Of a DNA stretch of 64,000 nt, positions 8,824 through 62,185 are shown in pieces (the stretch's first letter is position 1; every line of letters starts with the position of its first letter). The notes beneath the pieces are model-generated. The model saw only the letters and a list, made by a program, of their open reading frames with translations, ran no database searches and was not told the origin of the DNA. Both the position numbers and the translations under genes were made by a program. Source of the DNA: Candidatus Omnitrophota bacterium (GTDB lineage: Bacteria > CAIJMQ01); contig JAHJCU010000005.1 in assembly GCA_018812925.1 (NCBI GenBank), positions 134,957-198,956 of the forward strand. The letters run 5' to 3'.

Positions 8824-10119
8824 ATGAAACCTATAATACAAGTTGCGCTTGATTTTATTGAATTAAAAAGAGCCGTAAAACTTGCTCATGAAGCGGTTGG
8901 AGGCGGAGCTGATTGGCTTGAGGCGGGAACTCTTCTTATAAAAAGTGAAGGGATGGATGCGGTTAGAACTCTAAGAAAAGAATTTCCGAATTACACCATA
9001 ATCGCAGATATGAAAATCGCGGATACGGGTAGAGCCGAAGTCGAAGTTGCGGCTAAATCAGGGGCGGATATCGTTTGTGTGCTCGGTGGAATTTCTGACA
9101 GTACCATAAAAGAGTGCATTGAAGCAGGCAGGAATTATGGCGCTAAAATCATGGTTGACCTTCTTGAAGTAGAAGATTTGGTAAAAAGAGCAAAACAAGT
9201 TGAAAGTTGGGGCGCAGATTATTTGTGTATACACACTCCCATTGATGCGCAAATGAGGGGAAAAGACCCTTTTAAAGATTTGGGAAAAATCAGCAAGGCA
9301 GTAAATATACCTATTGCGGTTGCTGGCGGAATAAACAGCGAAACTGCTTCTAAGGCAGTCCAAGCAGGTGCTTCTATAATAATTGTCGGAGGAGCAATAA
9401 CAAAATCTGAAAATGCAAAAGAAGCGACACGGATTATTAAAAAAAGTATAAAAGATAAAAAACCTGTAAAAACATCTCTATATAAAAGAATTAGCGGGGA
9501 GGACATAAAAGATATTTTTTTTAAAGTATCTACTTCCAATATATCCGATGCGCTTCATAGGGGCGGTTATTGCAGAGATATAAGACCTATACTGGAAAAT
9601 ATTAAATTGGTAGGGAAAGTTTTTACGGTAAGAACGTACCCGGGTGATTGGGCAAAACCGGTGGAAGCAATAGATAAAGCGGAAAAGGGAGATGTTATAG
9701 TAATTGATTGTGGTGGGGTTGGTCCTGCGGTATGGGGAGAACTTGCATCATGGAGCGCTAAGCAAAAAGGCATTGCAGGCGTGGTGATAGACGGGGCAAT
9801 AAGAGATGTCCCGGAAATAAAAAAGTTTAAATTTTCGGCATTTGCAAAAATAATTACTCCACAGGCAGGCGAACCGAAAGGATTCGGAGAAATAGGAGTT
9901 GGCGTTGAAGTAGGCACAGTAAAAGTTTTTCCGGGGGACTGGATAATAGGAGATGATGACGGAGTAGTAGTAGTTCCTCAATTAAAAGCCACCGAAATAG
10001 CTAATCGCGCAATGGATGTGTTGGAAAAGGAAAACAGAGTCCGCAAAGAAATCAAAGAAGGCAGCACGCTTTCTCAAGTAACAGAGCTTTTGCGTTGGGA
10101 AAAAAACAGGCGAACGTAA
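8824..10119 (+). CDS. Bifunctional 3-hexulose-6-phosphate synthase / RraA-like protein
   Basis: 431 aa fusion. Residues 1 to ~205 are an orotidine-phosphate-decarboxylase-fold hexulose-6-phosphate synthase (ADMKIADTG carries the metal/phosphate residues; IPIAVAGGIN and IIIVGGAIT form the phosphate site), which condenses formaldehyde with ribulose 5-phosphate or runs in reverse to make pentoses. Residues ~220-425 are an RraA-like domain (GGVGPAVWGELAS, then VVIDGAIRD), a fold shared by RNase E inhibitors and HMG/oxaloacetate aldolases. The same fusion is known mainly in archaea and some bacteria. No isomerase gene (phi) is adjacent. The gene is transcribed alone from its own promoter. Confidence 0.85.
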   Translation: MKPIIQVALDFIELKRAVKLAHEAVGGGADWLEAGTLLIKSEGMDAVRTLRKEFPNYTIIADMKIADTGRAEVEVAAKSGADIVCVLGGISDSTIKECIEAGRNYGAKIMVDLLEVEDLVKRAKQVESWGADYLCIHTPIDAQMRGKDPFKDLGKISKAVNIPIAVAGGINSETASKAVQAGASIIIVGGAITKSENAKEATRIIKKSIKDKKPVKTSLYKRISGEDIKDIFFKVSTSNISDALHRGGYCRDIRPILENIKLVGKVFTVRTYPGDWAKPVEAIDKAEKGDVIVIDCGGVGPAVWGELASWSAKQKGIAGVVIDGAIRDVPEIKKFKFSAFAKIITPQAGEPKGFGEIGVGVEVGTVKVFPGDWIIGDDDGVVVVPQLKATEIANRAMDVLEKENRVRKEIKEGSTLSQVTELLRWEKNRRT

Positions 10120-10887: not shown

Positions 10888-11140
10888 AGTTTATCCCAGG
10901 ATTCCAAATATTAAAGAAGAGCATCTGATATTGGTTTAATGGATAAAGTCAATAATTTGGATTTTGGTTAATTTGGCAACAAATTTCTAGAAAGATTTTG
11001 ATATTATCGTGGAATTGAAAGGCCTGGTTGTGTTAACGGGCGTTTAATCCGTCAGTGTTGTTGGTCTAATAGTGGAAATGTCAGCTTATATAATAAAGTT
11101 GGGAAAATACAAGGAGGCTTTCAATGCAAGACCGACAGGT

Positions 11141-41655: not shown

Positions 41656-43134
41656 ATGCAACTTAAACAACTTCTAAAAGACATATCCGTAGAAAAAATA
41701 ATAGGTGATAAAGATATCAGTATTAAAGGAATATCCTCTCATTCGGCGGAAGTAAAACAAGGATATGTGTTTGTGGCTTTAAGGGGAAAATCTCGCGACG
41801 GTCATGATTTTGTGTCGGAAGTAACAAAAAAAGGCGCTGTTGCAGTTGTAATAGATAAGAACTTCAAACTGCCTCTTAACGGCATAACTTATATTTATGT
41901 TCAAGATACACAGGAAGCTCTTGCTAAAATCGCCGATAATTACTATGGTAGTCCCACAGACCATATGAAAATTATAGGAATTACGGGAACTAACGGAAAA
42001 ACTACTGTTTCCTATCTGATTGACAATATTCTCAAATCGCATGGTTTGGTTACAGGAAGAATAGGGACTATTGATTATTGTTGGGGGGGAAGAGTGATAC
42101 CGTCTTCTCATACAACTCCTCCACCTATTTTTTTGAGTGAAATCTTCAATAAAATGAGGACAGATAAAGTAAAAACCGTAGTGATGGAAGTATCTTCTCA
42201 TTCTCTTGTGCAGAAGAGAGTAGATGCGGTTCAATTTGATTCCTGCATTTTTACCAATATCCAAAGAGACCATCTTGATTACCATTCCACGGTTTCAGAT
42301 TATATTTCATCAAAGAGAAGACTAATAGATTTACTTTACTCAAGTAGCAAGCAAAATAAATTTTTAATTATAAACGGCGATGATGAAGTTTTAAAAAGTT
42401 TTCCTATTTCAAATTTGCCGTGTATTTTTTACGGTTTAAATAAAACAAACAATGTTTACGCCTCAGAGATAGAATTTAATTGGAATAGCACAACATTCAA
42501 TCTAAATTCACCTTGGCATAAAGGCAAAGTAGAAGTTCCATTGGTCGGTAATTTTAATCTTTATAATGTTCTTGCAGCAATATCTTTTGCCGGCATGGAT
42601 GGTTTGAATATAAATACGGTTATTGAAAGTCTTAAAAATATCAAACAAGTAACAGGACGTTTCCAAGTATTTAAAAAGAACGGAATAACGACAATTGTGG
42701 ATTATGCTCATACTCCGGACGCGTTAGAGAAAGTAATTGAAACAGCCAGAAAGCTTACGAATGGGAAATTAATAACGATATTTGGATGTGGCGGAAACAG
42801 AGACAAAGGCAAAAGACCTATTATGGGAGAAATTTCATCGAAAAAATCGGATTATACTATCATAACTTCCGATAATCCTCGCTCTGAAGACCCCTTAGAG
42901 ATAATCAAAGATATAAAAAAAGGAGTTTCAGGCAGTAACTGGTGTATAGAAGCCGATAGAGCAAAAGCTATTGAACAAGGAATTAATATGTTAAACAAAG
43001 GCGATGTTTTACTCGTTGCCGGAAAAGGACATGAGAGTTATCAGGTCCTAAAAGACACTGTTATCCCTTTTAGCGATATAGAGATTGTGAAGAGGCATTT
43101 TATTTCTAATGATAGTAAAAAAGATTCTAATTAA
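41656..43134 (+). CDS. murE: UDP-MurNAc-tripeptide synthetase MurE
   Basis: 492 aa. Adds the third residue of the stem peptide. ATP site GITGTNGKTTVSYL, central domain with TTPPPIFLSEIFNKM and VMEVSSHSL, and C-terminal SDNPRSEDPLEI. The DNPR motif is the known signature of meso-diaminopimelate specificity, so the wall is predicted to be DAP-type. The carbamylated lysine region is around YISSKRRLIDLL. Confidence 0.95.
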   Translation: MQLKQLLKDISVEKIIGDKDISIKGISSHSAEVKQGYVFVALRGKSRDGHDFVSEVTKKGAVAVVIDKNFKLPLNGITYIYVQDTQEALAKIADNYYGSPTDHMKIIGITGTNGKTTVSYLIDNILKSHGLVTGRIGTIDYCWGGRVIPSSHTTPPPIFLSEIFNKMRTDKVKTVVMEVSSHSLVQKRVDAVQFDSCIFTNIQRDHLDYHSTVSDYISSKRRLIDLLYSSSKQNKFLIINGDDEVLKSFPISNLPCIFYGLNKTNNVYASEIEFNWNSTTFNLNSPWHKGKVEVPLVGNFNLYNVLAAISFAGMDGLNINTVIESLKNIKQVTGRFQVFKKNGITTIVDYAHTPDALEKVIETARKLTNGKLITIFGCGGNRDKGKRPIMGEISSKKSDYTIITSDNPRSEDPLEIIKDIKKGVSGSNWCIEADRAKAIEQGINMLNKGDVLLVAGKGHESYQVLKDTVIPFSDIEIVKRHFISNDSKKDSN

Positions 43135-55177: not shown

Positions 55178-55185
55178 TTTAAAAA

Positions 55186-55311
55186 TCAGAAGACAGATGT
55201 CAGGTATCAGAAGTCAGATATCAGAAAACAGAATTCAGATTCTTTCTGTCTCTTCTTAACTGTTATCTATCTTCTGTCCTCTGTCCGCTGTTCTCTGTCT
55301 TCTGTTTTTCC
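55186..55311. repeat. Palindromic CAGA/TCTG phrase repeat reaching into ctpA
   Basis: The left arm (CAGAAGACAGATGTCAGG, TCAGAAGTCAGATATCAG, AAAACAGAATTCAGA) and the right arm (TCTTCTGTCCTCTGTCCGCTG, TTCTCTGTCTTCTG) form an imperfect palindrome. The right arm is inside the ctpA frame and codes for its last ~13 residues. Phrases are shared with 21417-21452. Confidence 0.75.
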
Positions 55312-56634
55312 TTCCAGATAATCAACCGCTTTCTGCAACTGTGGGTCTTTTTGAACGTCTTCTTTTTTATATTCCGCAAGCGATTCCCGAATCAATTTCC
55401 TTTCCTCTTTTGAGATTTCCACTTCTATATCGGGTTGGATTCCTTTGCTTTCTATGGGTTTGCCTCTGGGTATATAATTTGGGATATCTTCTTTTTTATA
55501 TTCCGCAAGGGATTCCCGAATCAGTTTCCTTTCTTCTTTTGAGATTGCTACTTCTATATCGGGTGCTATTCCTTTACCTTCTATACATTCGCCTCGGGGG
55601 ATATAATAATGTGCGGTGGTGAGTCTCAAGGCATAATCTTTATCAAGCTCGATTATGGATTGAACGGAACCTTTTCCAAAAGTTTTTGTTCCTATGATTA
55701 CGGCTCTATTGTCATCTTTCAGCGCTCCTGCCACTATCTCAGAAGCGCTGGCGCTTCCTTCGTTTACTAATATAACAATACTTTTATTTATAGGAAAAAG
55801 CGGTTCGAAGCGAGAATAATATTTTCTTTCATCTTTGCTGTCTCTTCCTTGTGTATAAACAATTAATTCTCCTTTTGGCAGAAAAAGGTCGGATACTTGA
55901 ATTGATGCATCAAGCAATCCGCCGGGGTTATTTCTTAAATCTAATATAAGAGAATTTGCTCCATTTTTTAATAGCTCTGCTATCGATTCTTTGAGCAGGT
56001 TAACAGTATCTTCTCTGAAAGCAGTAATGCGAACATAGCCAATTTTGTCCTTTATTATATTTGCATCTTTGACACTTTTTATATGAATGACTTCTCTTTC
56101 AAGCTCAAATGTAAGCAGGTCTTCTTCTCCTTCTCGCCAAACTTTGATTGTTACTTTTGTCCCCGGTTTGCCTCTTAATTGTTGCGCTGCTTTCCATGTG
56201 GATAATCCCTTGGTCGGCTCGCCATCGATATCAACAATTTTATCTCCGGATTCTATACCTGCGCGAAAAGCCGGAGTATCTTCAATTGGAGAAATTACGG
56301 TAATTATATTGTCCTGAAGAGTTATTACCATCCCCACGCCTTCTAATTCCCCTTTTGTTTCGACTTCAAACTCTTTTTTTATTTCAGGCGTCATAAACTG
56401 GGAATAAGGATCTAGAGAACTTACCATCCCTTCCAAAGAACTATCTATTAGTTCTTTTATCCCAACCTCTTTGACGTGTTTTTGCTGGATAGTTGCTATG
56501 ACTTTGGCTAAAAGTTCCAAATGCGGATAAATTTCTTCTTCTTTTGCAATCGAATTTCCGCGGGGGATATCCCCGATGGAAAACATGAGAATGAGAAATG
56601 CAAGAAATATCAATACATATCTAATTGACTTCAT
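55267..56634 (-). CDS. ctpA: C-terminal processing peptidase CtpA (S41 family)
   Basis: 455 aa. Periplasmic serine/lysine protease. Signal helix (YVLIFLAFLILMFSIGDIP), PDZ domain at ~95-180 (GVGMVITLQDNIITVISPIE, then AFRAGIESGDKI), and the S41 core with LILDLRNNPGGLLDASI, catalytic Ser in NEGSASASEIVAGAL and Lys in TKTFGKGSVQS. The C-terminal part contains a 43-residue tandem duplication (YIPRGECIEGKGIAPDIE and YIPRGKPIESKGIQPDIE units) and a final GKTEDREQRTEDRR tail coded by an intergenic repeat. The catalytic core is intact. Confidence 0.93.
   Translation of the reverse strand: MKSIRYVLIFLAFLILMFSIGDIPRGNSIAKEEEIYPHLELLAKVIATIQQKHVKEVGIKELIDSSLEGMVSSLDPYSQFMTPEIKKEFEVETKGELEGVGMVITLQDNIITVISPIEDTPAFRAGIESGDKIVDIDGEPTKGLSTWKAAQQLRGKPGTKVTIKVWREGEEDLLTFELEREVIHIKSVKDANIIKDKIGYVRITAFREDTVNLLKESIAELLKNGANSLILDLRNNPGGLLDASIQVSDLFLPKGELIVYTQGRDSKDERKYYSRFEPLFPINKSIVILVNEGSASASEIVAGALKDDNRAVIIGTKTFGKGSVQSIIELDKDYALRLTTAHYYIPRGECIEGKGIAPDIEVAISKEERKLIRESLAEYKKEDIPNYIPRGKPIESKGIQPDIEVEISKEERKLIRESLAEYKKEDVQKDPQLQKAVDYLEGKTEDREQRTEDRR
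55358..55615 (-). repeat. 129-bp tandem duplication inside ctpA
   Basis: Two adjacent units with a period of exactly 129 bases (for example ATTCCGCAAG at 55371 and at 55500), 43 codons each, differing at a small share of positions. Because the period is a multiple of three, the frame is kept. Both units encode the strand-rich YIPRG...PDIE...ISKEERKLIRESLAEYKKED segment. Confidence 0.85.
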
Positions 56635-58061: not shown

Positions 58062-59270
58062 TTATTTCTTTTTTTTCTGCTTTTCTAATATTTTAAGAGC
58101 TTGTATCTTTTGCGGAAGCCCGAAAAGTTCTATGAATCCTTTAGCGGATTGGTGATTAAAAATATCTTCCGGAGAATATGTCGCCATTTTCGTATTATAA
58201 AGCGAATTTGGTGAATTTCTTCCTACTACAATACAGTTGGCTTTGTGTAATTTTAATGTAACTTCGCCGGTTGTATTCTCGTGTATTTTTTCTAAAAATG
58301 AGTCAAGCGCTTCTTTTAAATCGGAATACCACAGGCCATAATAGACCAACTGGGCATATTTGCTGGAAATAACTTCCTTAAAATGTGTAGTTTCTCTGTC
58401 AAGAGTTAGGTTTTCTATTTCTCCTAAAGCTTTATGGAGCATAACTGCAGCAGGTGCTTCATATAGTTCTCTGCTTTTTATCCCAACGAGTCTGTCTTCT
58501 ACCATATCAATTCTTCCTATGCCGTGTTTTGCACCTATACTATTAAGTTCTACGATAAGCGCAGATAATTCATATTTATTGCCGTCGAGCTTCTTAGGGA
58601 TACCGTTTTCAAAGTATATTTTTATATATTGAGGCTTGTCGGGGGTCTTATCTATCGGATTTGTTTTATCCCATGCATCTTCCGGTGGTTCTTGATCGGG
58701 GTCTTCTAGAACACCGCATTCTATAGAAGTGCCCCAGATGTTTTTATCTATGCTGTAGGGACTTTTTTTCGTGGTTGAAACGGGGATATGATGTTTTTTC
58801 GCATATTCTATTTCTTCTTCCCTTGATTTAAGTTCCCATTCTCTTAGGGGAGCTATGATTTTTAAATTTGGGGCAAAAGAAAAGATTGTCAACTCAAATC
58901 TTACCTGGTCGTTGCCTTTTCCGGTGCAACCGTGAGCTACGGCATCCGCCTTTTCTTTTCTAGCTATTTCTACCAATCCACTCGCGATTAAAGGTCTTGA
59001 AAGCGCCGTGGCAAGGGGATATTTCCCTTCATATAAAGCGCCTGCTTTTAGTGTGGGTGCTATAAATTCATTTGCGAATTCTTTTTTTAAATCTTCAACA
59101 TATACCTTAAATGCTCCCGTGCTTTTCGCTTTTTTTTCTATTTCACTCTTATTAATTTCATCTCCAATAGTAGCGGTATATGTTATGACTTTTGCTTTAT
59201 ATTTATCTTTAAGCCATTTTAAGGCAACGGAAGTATCTAACCCACCAGAATAAGCAAGTACTATTTTCAT
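58062..59270 (-). CDS. argG: Argininosuccinate synthase
   Basis: 402 aa. Joins citrulline and aspartate using ATP. P-loop LAYSGGLDTSVALKWL, AHGCTGKGNDQVRFE and the SIECGVLEDPDQEPPE segment with GRIDMVEDRLVGIKSRE identify it. Last of the arginine genes on this strand; argH is absent here. An AGGAG site precedes the ATG. Confidence 0.97.
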   Translation of the reverse strand: MKIVLAYSGGLDTSVALKWLKDKYKAKVITYTATIGDEINKSEIEKKAKSTGAFKVYVEDLKKEFANEFIAPTLKAGALYEGKYPLATALSRPLIASGLVEIARKEKADAVAHGCTGKGNDQVRFELTIFSFAPNLKIIAPLREWELKSREEEIEYAKKHHIPVSTTKKSPYSIDKNIWGTSIECGVLEDPDQEPPEDAWDKTNPIDKTPDKPQYIKIYFENGIPKKLDGNKYELSALIVELNSIGAKHGIGRIDMVEDRLVGIKSRELYEAPAAVMLHKALGEIENLTLDRETTHFKEVISSKYAQLVYYGLWYSDLKEALDSFLEKIHENTTGEVTLKLHKANCIVVGRNSPNSLYNTKMATYSPEDIFNHQSAKGFIELFGLPQKIQALKILEKQKKKK

Positions 59271-59282
59271 TTACTCCTCCAT

Positions 59283-59405
59283 TAAAAATTAACATAGAAA
59301 CACAATAGATATATACATAGAAATATATGGAAATAAATCGAAATATGTTGTCTGTCCACCACGTATTTCTACCATATTTCTACGCATATCTATATATTTC
59401 CTTTT
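59283..59405. repeat. Palindromic repeat with conserved core, copy 2 (reverse of copy 1)
   Basis: Core at 59348-59369; read on the minus strand it is GAAATACGTGGTGGACAGAC plus AA, against GAAATACGTAGTATGCAGAC plus AA in the element at 44535-44655. Flanking ATATTTC / GAAATAT phrases also match, including TTATTTCCAT. It fills the gap between argG and the broken PLD gene. Confidence 0.75.
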
Positions 59406-59407
59406 TA

Positions 59408-59964
59408 TTATTTAGTATTAATAAGCCCTATTATATATCTCTCAGTCTCTTTTGCCAATTCATTCGAATTTATAAGTACTGAAAGTTCATTATTTTTTGA
59501 TAATCCGGAATATGTCCAATTATGACTTCCTATTATTGTATACCTTGAATCTATGAATCTATCACTATTGTTTTTGTATGAGTCAGCGTTTCAACGCTAT
59601 TGTAATAAACTTTTACTCCTTTTTTCGAAAGGATTTTGCCGGTCTTCTGATTTTCCTTTGTGCTCTCCTCATCTCGGGAAATATCAAGCAAAACGGTTAC
59701 ATCTACCCCCCTTTTCTTTGCTTCTATCAAAGCATTTACAAAGATATTGGACGGGGATTTTGGATATTGGGAATAATATTTAAAAGAATACATCGCAACA
59801 AAGATAGATTTGGTTGCAGAATTAAATAGCGAATTAATTGTTTTACAATATTGTTCGGAAGTCAGCAATTCTACGTTTTCCGCCGTAAGTGCACAGACGC
59901 TGGCTTGTTGCAGTAAAAATAAAAGAAAGAAGGTTATAAATAAAATCTTAAACTTTTGTGCCAT
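59408..59964 (-). pseudogene. Secreted phospholipase D-like nuclease, frameshifted by an 8-bp tandem duplication
   Basis: From the ATG at 59964 the product has a signal peptide (KILFITFFLLFLLQQASVCA) and a PLD-superfamily domain (SIFVAMYSFKYYS, ALIEAKKRGVDVTVLLD) running into the HKD motif HTKTIVID, then stops at 59551. Removing one copy of the tandem GAATCTAT (59547-59554 and 59555-59562) restores RYTIIGSHNWTYSG, NNELSVLINSNE and a normal end at 59408. The intact protein would be about 183 aa, the size of one-HKD Nuc-type endonucleases. It may be dead, phase-variable or an assembly slip. The start overlaps the argF stop by one base. Confidence 0.82.
59547..59562. repeat. 8-bp perfect tandem duplication causing a frameshift
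   Basis: GAATCTAT twice in a row. Loss of one unit would re-open the PLD reading frame exactly through its catalytic motif. Confidence 0.9.
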
Positions 59965-60884
59965 TATTTTCCCAAAAGCAAAACCAACAACGCTTTTTGC
60001 GCGTGTAATTTGTTTTCTGCCTGTTCCCATACAATAGAGTGTGTGCCATCCAGCACTTCTGAAGTTATCTCTTCACCTCTATGAGCGGGCAAACAATGCA
60101 TAACAAGAACGTGCTTTTTGGCTGCCTTGACAAGTTTTTCGTTTATCTGGAAATCTCTGAAAGCGTTTAATCTTGCTTTTTTCTGTTCCTCTTCGCCCAT
60201 GGAAACCCACACATCCGTATAAATTACATCCGCGTTTTTGACCGCCTCTATAGGATTACTTAATAGTTTGATTTTGCATTTCGGATTTATTTTTTGCGCG
60301 TCTTCCAAAATTCCTGAGCTTGGCTCATATCCTTTGGGAGAAGAAATGGTCAAGTTAATACCTGTTTTTGCCGAGCCGTATATCAATGAATTACAAACAT
60401 TATTCCCGGCTCCTATATAAGTCAATTTTACATCTTCCAATTTACCGACTTTTTCTTTTATAGTAAACATATCTGATAAAATCTGACACGGATGGGAAAA
60501 ATCAGATAAAGCATTTATCACGGGAATTGAAGAATTCTCAGCCAATTTAGTCAGATTGTCGTGGTTATATGTTCTTACAGCTAGAGCATCAAGATAAAGC
60601 GAGAAAATCTTTGCCGCATCGGATAGGGTTTCGCCTCTTTTTAACTGGAGTTGTTCGGATTGTAAAAACAATGAATTCCCGCCGAGTTCTCTTATGGCTA
60701 TTTCAAAAGATATTCTCGTTCTTGTGGATAGTTTCTCAAATAAAAGCCCCAGGCTTTTTCCATCCAATAAATGGATAATCTTTTCCCCTCTTTTTCTTCT
60801 GATTTTTAATTCCGAAGCCATTTGAAAAAGAAGATTAATGTCTTGTTTATTTATATCTTTAATAGAAAGCAAATTTTTATTCAT
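59964..60884 (-). CDS. argF: Ornithine carbamoyltransferase
   Basis: 306 aa. Makes citrulline from ornithine and carbamoyl phosphate. Carbamoyl-phosphate motif STRTRISFE, DALAVRTYNHD, HPCQILSDMFT and the ornithine-binding VMHCLPAHRGEEI are intact. Located four bases after argD; the next gene overlaps its stop by one base. Confidence 0.97.
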   Translation of the reverse strand: MNKNLLSIKDINKQDINLLFQMASELKIRRKRGEKIIHLLDGKSLGLLFEKLSTRTRISFEIAIRELGGNSLFLQSEQLQLKRGETLSDAAKIFSLYLDALAVRTYNHDNLTKLAENSSIPVINALSDFSHPCQILSDMFTIKEKVGKLEDVKLTYIGAGNNVCNSLIYGSAKTGINLTISSPKGYEPSSGILEDAQKINPKCKIKLLSNPIEAVKNADVIYTDVWVSMGEEEQKKARLNAFRDFQINEKLVKAAKKHVLVMHCLPAHRGEEITSEVLDGTHSIVWEQAENKLHAQKALLVLLLGK

Positions 60885-60888
60885 GGTT

Positions 60889-62076
60889 TTATTTTAGGTT
60901 AGTCAATACTTCTTCAAGAATCTTTATCCCTTCATCGATTTCTTTTTTCTGCACGATAAGAGGAGGAACAAATCTTAATACATTTTCGCCTGCTGTTCCT
61001 ATGAGCAAACCCTTCTCCATGCATTTTAATAATATACCTCTTGCTCCGTTAGCAACAGGGGCAATTTCCATCCCCAACATTAGCCCTTTACCTCTTACTT
61101 CTTTTATGAACGGATATTTACTTTTTAAACTGTTTAATTTGTCCTTAAAATAATCTCCCATCTTGCCAGCGTTATCAATCAGATTATCTCCCAACATTGT
61201 TTTTAATGTTACAACTGCGGCTTTTGTCGCAAGAGGATTTCCTCCAAAAGTCGCCGCATGATTGCCGGGACTAATACAGGAAGAAACTTTTTCGTTTGCG
61301 ATTACGGCTCCTATAGGGACTCCTCCTCCCAACGATTTAGCAAGCGTAACCATGTCAGGTGTTATCCCGTAATATTCGTAAGCAAAGAGTTTGCCCGTTC
61401 TTCCCATTCCGCACTGGACCTCATCCAGAATGAGGAGTATATCGTTCTCATCGCAGAGTAATCTTACTTGTTTAAGGAATTCTTTTTTTGCGGGATTTAT
61501 GCCGCTTTCTCCCTGTACCGGTTCAATAAGTATTGCGCAAGTTTTGTCAGTAATAAGATTTTTGACGGATTCTATATTATTAAACTCTGCATATTTAAAA
61601 CCCGGCAGTAACGGCTCAAACCCTTTATGGAATTTATCCTGCCCTGTTGCAGTAAGCGCTCCGTAAGTTCTGCCGTGAAAAGAACCGCTCATTGTGATGA
61701 TTTCGTACCTGCCCTGTCCGTATTTTCTTGCAAACTTGATAGCCGCTTCGTTTGCTTCTGCTCCTGAGTTACAGAAAAAACATTTTCCTGGGAAAGAGTT
61801 CTCAACGAGAATAGACGCCAATTCAATCTGATTTGGGATAAGGTATAAATTGGATGTGTGAATTAGTTTCTCAGCTTGTTCTTTAATTGCTTCAACCAAT
61901 TTGGGATGAGAATGTCCCAACCCACTAACCGCAATGCCGGAAAGAAAGTCTATATATTCTTTGCCTTCCACATCCCAAATCTTACATCCTTTTCCGTGAG
62001 AAAACGCAATAGTTTTCCCTGCGTATGTTGGGATAATATATTTTTGGTCTAATTTGATCATCTCTTGTGTATTCAT
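60889..62076 (-). CDS. argD: Acetylornithine aminotransferase
   Basis: 395 aa. PLP-dependent class III aminotransferase. CNSGAEANEAAIKFARKY, SFHGRTYGALTATGQ, the PLP lysine in TLAKSLGGGVPIGA and ILDEVQCGMGRTGKLFAYE are characteristic. Could also serve succinyldiaminopimelate amination for lysine/DAP, as in E. coli. Confidence 0.95.
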   Translation of the reverse strand: MNTQEMIKLDQKYIIPTYAGKTIAFSHGKGCKIWDVEGKEYIDFLSGIAVSGLGHSHPKLVEAIKEQAEKLIHTSNLYLIPNQIELASILVENSFPGKCFFCNSGAEANEAAIKFARKYGQGRYEIITMSGSFHGRTYGALTATGQDKFHKGFEPLLPGFKYAEFNNIESVKNLITDKTCAILIEPVQGESGINPAKKEFLKQVRLLCDENDILLILDEVQCGMGRTGKLFAYEYYGITPDMVTLAKSLGGGVPIGAVIANEKVSSCISPGNHAATFGGNPLATKAAVVTLKTMLGDNLIDNAGKMGDYFKDKLNSLKSKYPFIKEVRGKGLMLGMEIAPVANGARGILLKCMEKGLLIGTAGENVLRFVPPLIVQKKEIDEGIKILEEVLTNLK

Positions 62077-62089
62077 TTTTAATACGCCT

Positions 62090-62178
62090 CGCTATGTTCG
62101 TAACTGGTAAATCGTAAAGAGTAAAGCGTAATTTTAAATTACTATTTACCAATTACCATTTACCATTTACCATTTACG
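62090..62178. repeat. Palindromic GGTAAA/TTTACC phrase repeat between argB and argD
   Basis: The left arm (AACTGGTAAATCGTAAAGAG, TAAAGCGTAATTTT) and the right arm (AAATTACTATTTACC, then ATTACCATTTACC units, three times) make an imperfect palindrome. Same phrase type as 23139-23232. Confidence 0.65.
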
Positions 62179-62185
62179 GGTTCTT

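Follow-up and report, generated by a model that had tools for sequence, protein, structure and literature searches.

The window analyzed here is a 64,000-bp stretch of DNA (positions 134957 to 198956 of contig C14) from G000, a draft genome of 1.47 Mb that comprises 14 contigs and is 92% complete. On the minus strand, a PLD gene lies between two arginine genes, in the order argF, PLD gene, argG (Table 1). The PLD start codon (ATG at 59964) shares one nucleotide with the argF stop codon (TAATG), and translation of the PLD gene is probably coupled to argF. Homologs of argF were found in five of the six near genomes. From this ATG, the frame encodes a hydrophobic N terminus, reads on to ...HTKTIVIDS, including the HTKTIVID motif, and terminates at a TAG codon (59551 to 59553). 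The stop lies within a tandem duplication of the 8-mer TGAATCTA, whose full tract, TGAATCTATGAATCTAT, spans 17 bp (2.1 copies). In the -1 frame, the domain resumes as RYTIIGSHNWTYSGLSKNNELSVLINS... and runs to a stop ending at 59408, leaving the PF13091 domain split across two frames, with a second match in the 3' part (profile positions 87 to 128; 34.9 bits). Neither PLD piece contains any further stop. A preliminary description had placed the two 8-bp units exactly at the frame break, and this is where they are.

Table 1. Features at and around the interrupted PLD gene (positions within the window)
Feature	Coordinates	Strand	Description
argG (argininosuccinate synthase)	58062..59270	-	Downstream gene; NF001770, 586.2 bits (cut-off 334)
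AT-rich degenerate inverted repeat, dispersed element	59283..59414		3' end of the PLD gene, ahead of argG; context only
PLD gene, 3' part	59408..59545	-	-1 frame, RYTIIGSHNWTYSG...; GSxN half of the active-site motif
8-bp tandem duplication	59546..59562		2 complete units plus 1 base
PLD gene, 5' part	59551..59964	-	137 codons; PF13091, 53.8 bits, profile positions 3 to 89 of 132
argF (ornithine carbamoyltransferase)	59964..60884	-	Upstream gene; TIGR00658, 409.5 bits (cut-off 280.85)

We considered whether such a repeat could be a matter of chance. Exact two-copy 8-mers occur three times in the 64-kb window and 1.83 times on average in 60 dinucleotide shuffles. This is about the same frequency, so the repeat by itself is no evidence of anything. 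It becomes meaningful through its position right at the frame break and through the comparison with G001, a genome of the same genus in which the gene is open and carries one unit at that site.

To describe the protein we used the G001 ortholog, which carries PF13091 (99 bits) and has the Salmonella nuclease Nuc (1byr) as its best PDB match by sequence (E value of 1e-7). A fold search with an AlphaFold2 model of this ortholog (mean pLDDT of 83.1 from a four-row alignment) again returned 1byr first (E value of 4.2e-11), followed by mouse PLD6 and NucT (6ehi). The fold alignment with Nuc shows 28% identity. The ortholog scores over the PLDc_2 cut-off and has HxKxxxxD and GSxN in one frame, as a single-HKD PLD protein does. 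It is probably a nuclease, and with a single HKD motif it probably acts as a dimer. The model begins with a helix, modeled at low confidence and hydrophobic by reading, that suggests export; the substrate would then probably be extracellular or periplasmic nucleic acid. Of the secreted nuclease envisaged in the preliminary description, the PLD family assignment therefore stands (PF13091 and the 1byr match), and the nuclease function is probable. The product of the window copy comprises 137 residues and lacks the GSxN part. Judged against the G001 model, it also lacks two strands (residues 139 to 142 and 159 to 163) and two helices (149 to 153 and 165 to 180), and it should be inactive.

More specific identities were tried for this protein. 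Matches to NucT models reached an E value of 3.9e-16, but the best model gave 59.5 bits against an equivalog cut-off of 211; the fold is similar, and the protein is not NucT itself. For DrmC of the DISARM system the score was 68.2 bits against a cut-off of 133, and the two neighbors are argF and argG. A defense role was set aside, as the scores of both the DrmC and DpdK models fall under the NCBIfam cut-offs. We judge the PADLOC matches, which are made without cut-offs, to be general PLD-domain matches.

The G001 ortholog is open, encodes 183 amino acids and has the same start, the same place and one unit of the repeat. This is the intact one-unit version that the preliminary description had deduced by removing the second, frame-disrupting unit. 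With its one unit, the G001 allele lacks a direct repeat at this site. Within the PLD gene, DNA identity between G000 and G001 is 89 to 99% per 100 alignment columns, with gaps counted. The dN/dS ratio of the PLD 5' piece (0.164; 13 nucleotide changes) resembles those of argF (0.154) and argG (0.178) at a dS of 0.08 to 0.18, and we therefore regard the break as young. The 3' piece has a ratio of 0.253 from six nucleotide changes, too few to tell selection from drift. The suggestion that a dead gene next to argF would otherwise decay quickly did not hold up, given a dS between the two genomes of only about 0.1. At this synonymous divergence, the absence of further decay does not need a switch as its explanation. 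The purifying selection on what remains of the gene is, however, just as compatible with a locus that is mostly on and only now and then off.

Next to argF and argG, the PLD gene is not a constant presence. In G002, of the same genus, argF and argG are separated by 29 bp, and in G003, of the same family, by 62 bp; neither genome has a PLD gene between them, and neither yielded a match to the PLD 5' piece (the genomes are 81% and 84% complete, respectively). The gene is thus dispensable. Matches to the 5' piece were obtained in 12 of 60 genomes, G000 included. In G005, from another family of the same class, a PLD gene overlaps argF, and in the tree (40 best rows after removal of five duplicate loci) its product clusters with the G001 protein (support of 96/92). 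Since both of these genes overlap argF, the position beside argF looks ancestral and its absence looks like loss, which would have occurred once or twice within the family.

HxK and GSxN were found in one frame at 84 of 95 relatives' loci (78 with the strict pattern and 6 with a looser one); the 95 include at least five pairs that are the same gene twice, and the 11 loci without a one-frame motif were left out. A contig scan listed 80 of 86 relatives, and records near the window may be missing from it. None of the 84 has a tandem dimer of 7 to 12 bp between HxK and GSxN, and 6 of the 84 have one of 5 or 6 bp. The single unit in G001 and the lack of 7- to 12-bp dimers among the relatives make the two-unit form most likely the derived one, and the duplication should be inactivating. 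The window copy thus has an undamaged ortholog in a close relative, carries one derived change that breaks the frame and belongs to a gene that is dispensable in relatives, the features of a recent frameshift pseudogene.

We surveyed indels in the blocks of the window that aligned to G001 with more than 250 columns and more than 85% identity (41,727 of the 64,000 bases). The aligned bases within open reading frames (ORFs) of at least 100 amino acids, a set that includes unverified ORFs, came to 39,176 (39.2 kb). Among the 19 indels found, the PLD duplication is the sole frame-breaking indel located mid-gene, although the survey itself classed its site as intergenic, since the interrupted ORF already stops at 59551. 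Of two other frame-breaking indels within ORFs, one (at 11137) precedes a likelier start codon that follows AAGGAGG and one (at 43119) lies inside about the last five codons of its ORF. As far as the blocks show, this counts against a generally faulty assembly and also against the idea that short duplications often break frames in this genome. Indels at block ends were uncounted, and a 129-bp in-frame tandem duplication at 55349 to 55606 was missed in this way. It lies outside the blocks, 4 kb from the PLD gene, in a C-terminal processing peptidase gene (55267 to 56634, minus strand; TIGR00225). The two copies are 84% identical and lengthen the C-terminal part of the protein; the G001 ortholog has a single copy of the segment (409 versus 455 amino acids). 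By reading, the end of the peptidase gene runs into an intergenic word repeat.

Short degenerate palindromic or tandem "word" repeats of this kind occur in several intergenic gaps (window positions 59283 to 59414, 55180 to 55310 and 62135 to 62180; positions 9440 to 9630 of the G001 locus L109). The word at 59281 to 59417 has 13 further matches in its own genome and, among the matches listed, about 25 in G001 and 9 in G002. In the gap at 55180 the word is of the CAGAAGTCAG type here and of the GAAATACATGG type in G001 (L109, 9475), so the gap has been retained and its text changed. The gap between argF and argD is about 88 bp longer in G001 (L109, 15063 to 15195) than in the window (60885 to 60929). 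The longer G001 gap contains an imperfect inverted repeat beginning GAGCAAGCTCGG, and the same 12-mer occurs again at L109, 4450.

The preliminary description had proposed reversible phase variation. On this reading, gain and loss of the 8-bp unit would be frequent enough to maintain a population mixed for nuclease on and off. In its favor are a unit of 8 bp, which is not divisible by three, a precise break, the absence of other disabling changes and an intact one-unit allele in the same genus; a tandem duplication absent from G001 (the 129-bp one) also lies nearby. The tract, however, has only two units, and SSR screens in H. influenzae and Neisseria set the cut-off for 8-mers at three or more (PMC2651432, Table 2; PMC5953494); a Campylobacter screen requires five or more for longer units (PMC6321876). 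According to PMC2651432, lowering the cut-off by one yields 45 octamers in H. influenzae Rd KW20, so such dimers are common. The same study records an intergenic octamer whose unit number ranges from 1 to 6 among strains of H. influenzae, and a one-unit allele alone would therefore not exclude a variable locus. The G001 allele nevertheless offers no repeat for slippage, and a tract of varying unit number is not seen in the genomes and relatives that we compared (G001, G002, G003 and the 84 relatives): a 7- to 12-bp dimer is missing from all 84, and in G002 and G003 the gene itself is missing from its place. On this evidence, the proposed switch was not upheld, and we consider it quite unlikely. 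Going from on to off takes a rare new duplication and going back takes a deletion between the units, which is how an ordinary revertible mutation behaves.

Tandem duplications inside pneumococcal capsule genes reportedly control phase variation (Waite 2001, 2003). With these duplications and the 1-to-6-unit octamer as precedents, reversible behavior at a low rate is conceivable. Our search on switching by short duplications turned up only partly relevant papers, and the two-unit form has been seen in one genome of the species. That the species retains a low-frequency duplication and reversion switch, so that cells with and without the extracellular nuclease coexist, strikes us as very unlikely. 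If it were true, the gene would be a contingency locus operating with no more than one or two units, a kind that three-unit SSR screens would miss; coexistence of both forms in read data would suggest that present screens overlook contingency loci, here in an uncultured lineage.

The remaining explanations concern the reality of the duplication, its origin and its effect. An assembly or sequencing artifact, with the real population carrying one unit, would fit the single unit in G001, the otherwise clean PLD gene and a draft in 14 contigs at 92% completeness. The assembly does not have an error-prone look, though, given that the 39.2 kb of aligned ORFs contain no other mid-gene frame-breaking indel, and an 8-bp nonhomopolymer duplication is, to our knowledge, not a typical read error, so we regard an artifact as unlikely. 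Several IS families produce 8-bp target-site duplications, and the unit of exactly 8 bp could be a footprint remaining after the loss of such an element. The units abut with nothing between them, however, and searches of the genome (92% complete) for the transposases of two families, ISL3 (PF01610) and IS256 type (PF00872), found none, which makes this origin highly improbable. We give almost no credence to programmed -1 frameshifting, which would produce a full-length protein from the two-unit allele. The two pieces do lie in the 0 and -1 frames, but there is no slippery heptamer (X-XXY-YYZ) where both frames are open, the RNA fold z-score of -0.55 indicates no recoding structure, the product would have added residues beside the motif, and the G001 ortholog needs no shift.

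We therefore favor a recent loss of function caused by a short tandem duplication, as opposed to an evolved switch, and put the probability of this explanation at about 80%. In the lineage leading to this genome, slippage during replication or repair may have duplicated 8 bp just past the catalytic HxKxxxxD. The duplication shifts the frame by -1 and stops translation immediately, so that the GSxN portion of the active site is lost with everything downstream, which probably abolishes activity. Such a null allele would be tolerated because the gene is accessory, two further family members having no copy at the same position, and it is probably heading for loss. Like any two-copy duplication, it could revert at a low rate. 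The case shows how a single short duplication can silence an accessory gene, and two-copy repeats should not be taken as switches without population data.

The protein itself resembles two single-HKD PLD nucleases, Salmonella Nuc and Helicobacter pylori NucT, in that the G001 ortholog carries PF13091. It differs from them in falling under every NCBIfam cut-off tried and in having, in the window copy, no GSxN part in frame. According to one study, the nuclease NucT is implicated in purine salvage and natural transformation (PMC5714352). With the SSR contingency genes of Haemophilus, Neisseria and Campylobacter, the window gene shares a unit that is not a multiple of three within an ORF, the number of units setting the frame. 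Unlike those genes, it has two units and no hypermutable tract, and it is accessory and absent in relatives. It also resembles frameshift pseudogenes that arise from short tandem duplications, the pneumococcal capsule mutants among them, in which one duplication within a gene inactivates it and precise reversion is possible in principle. The capsule mutants concern a different organism and gene; in one nontypeable isolate, for instance, wchA carries a short tandem duplication (PMC4022640).
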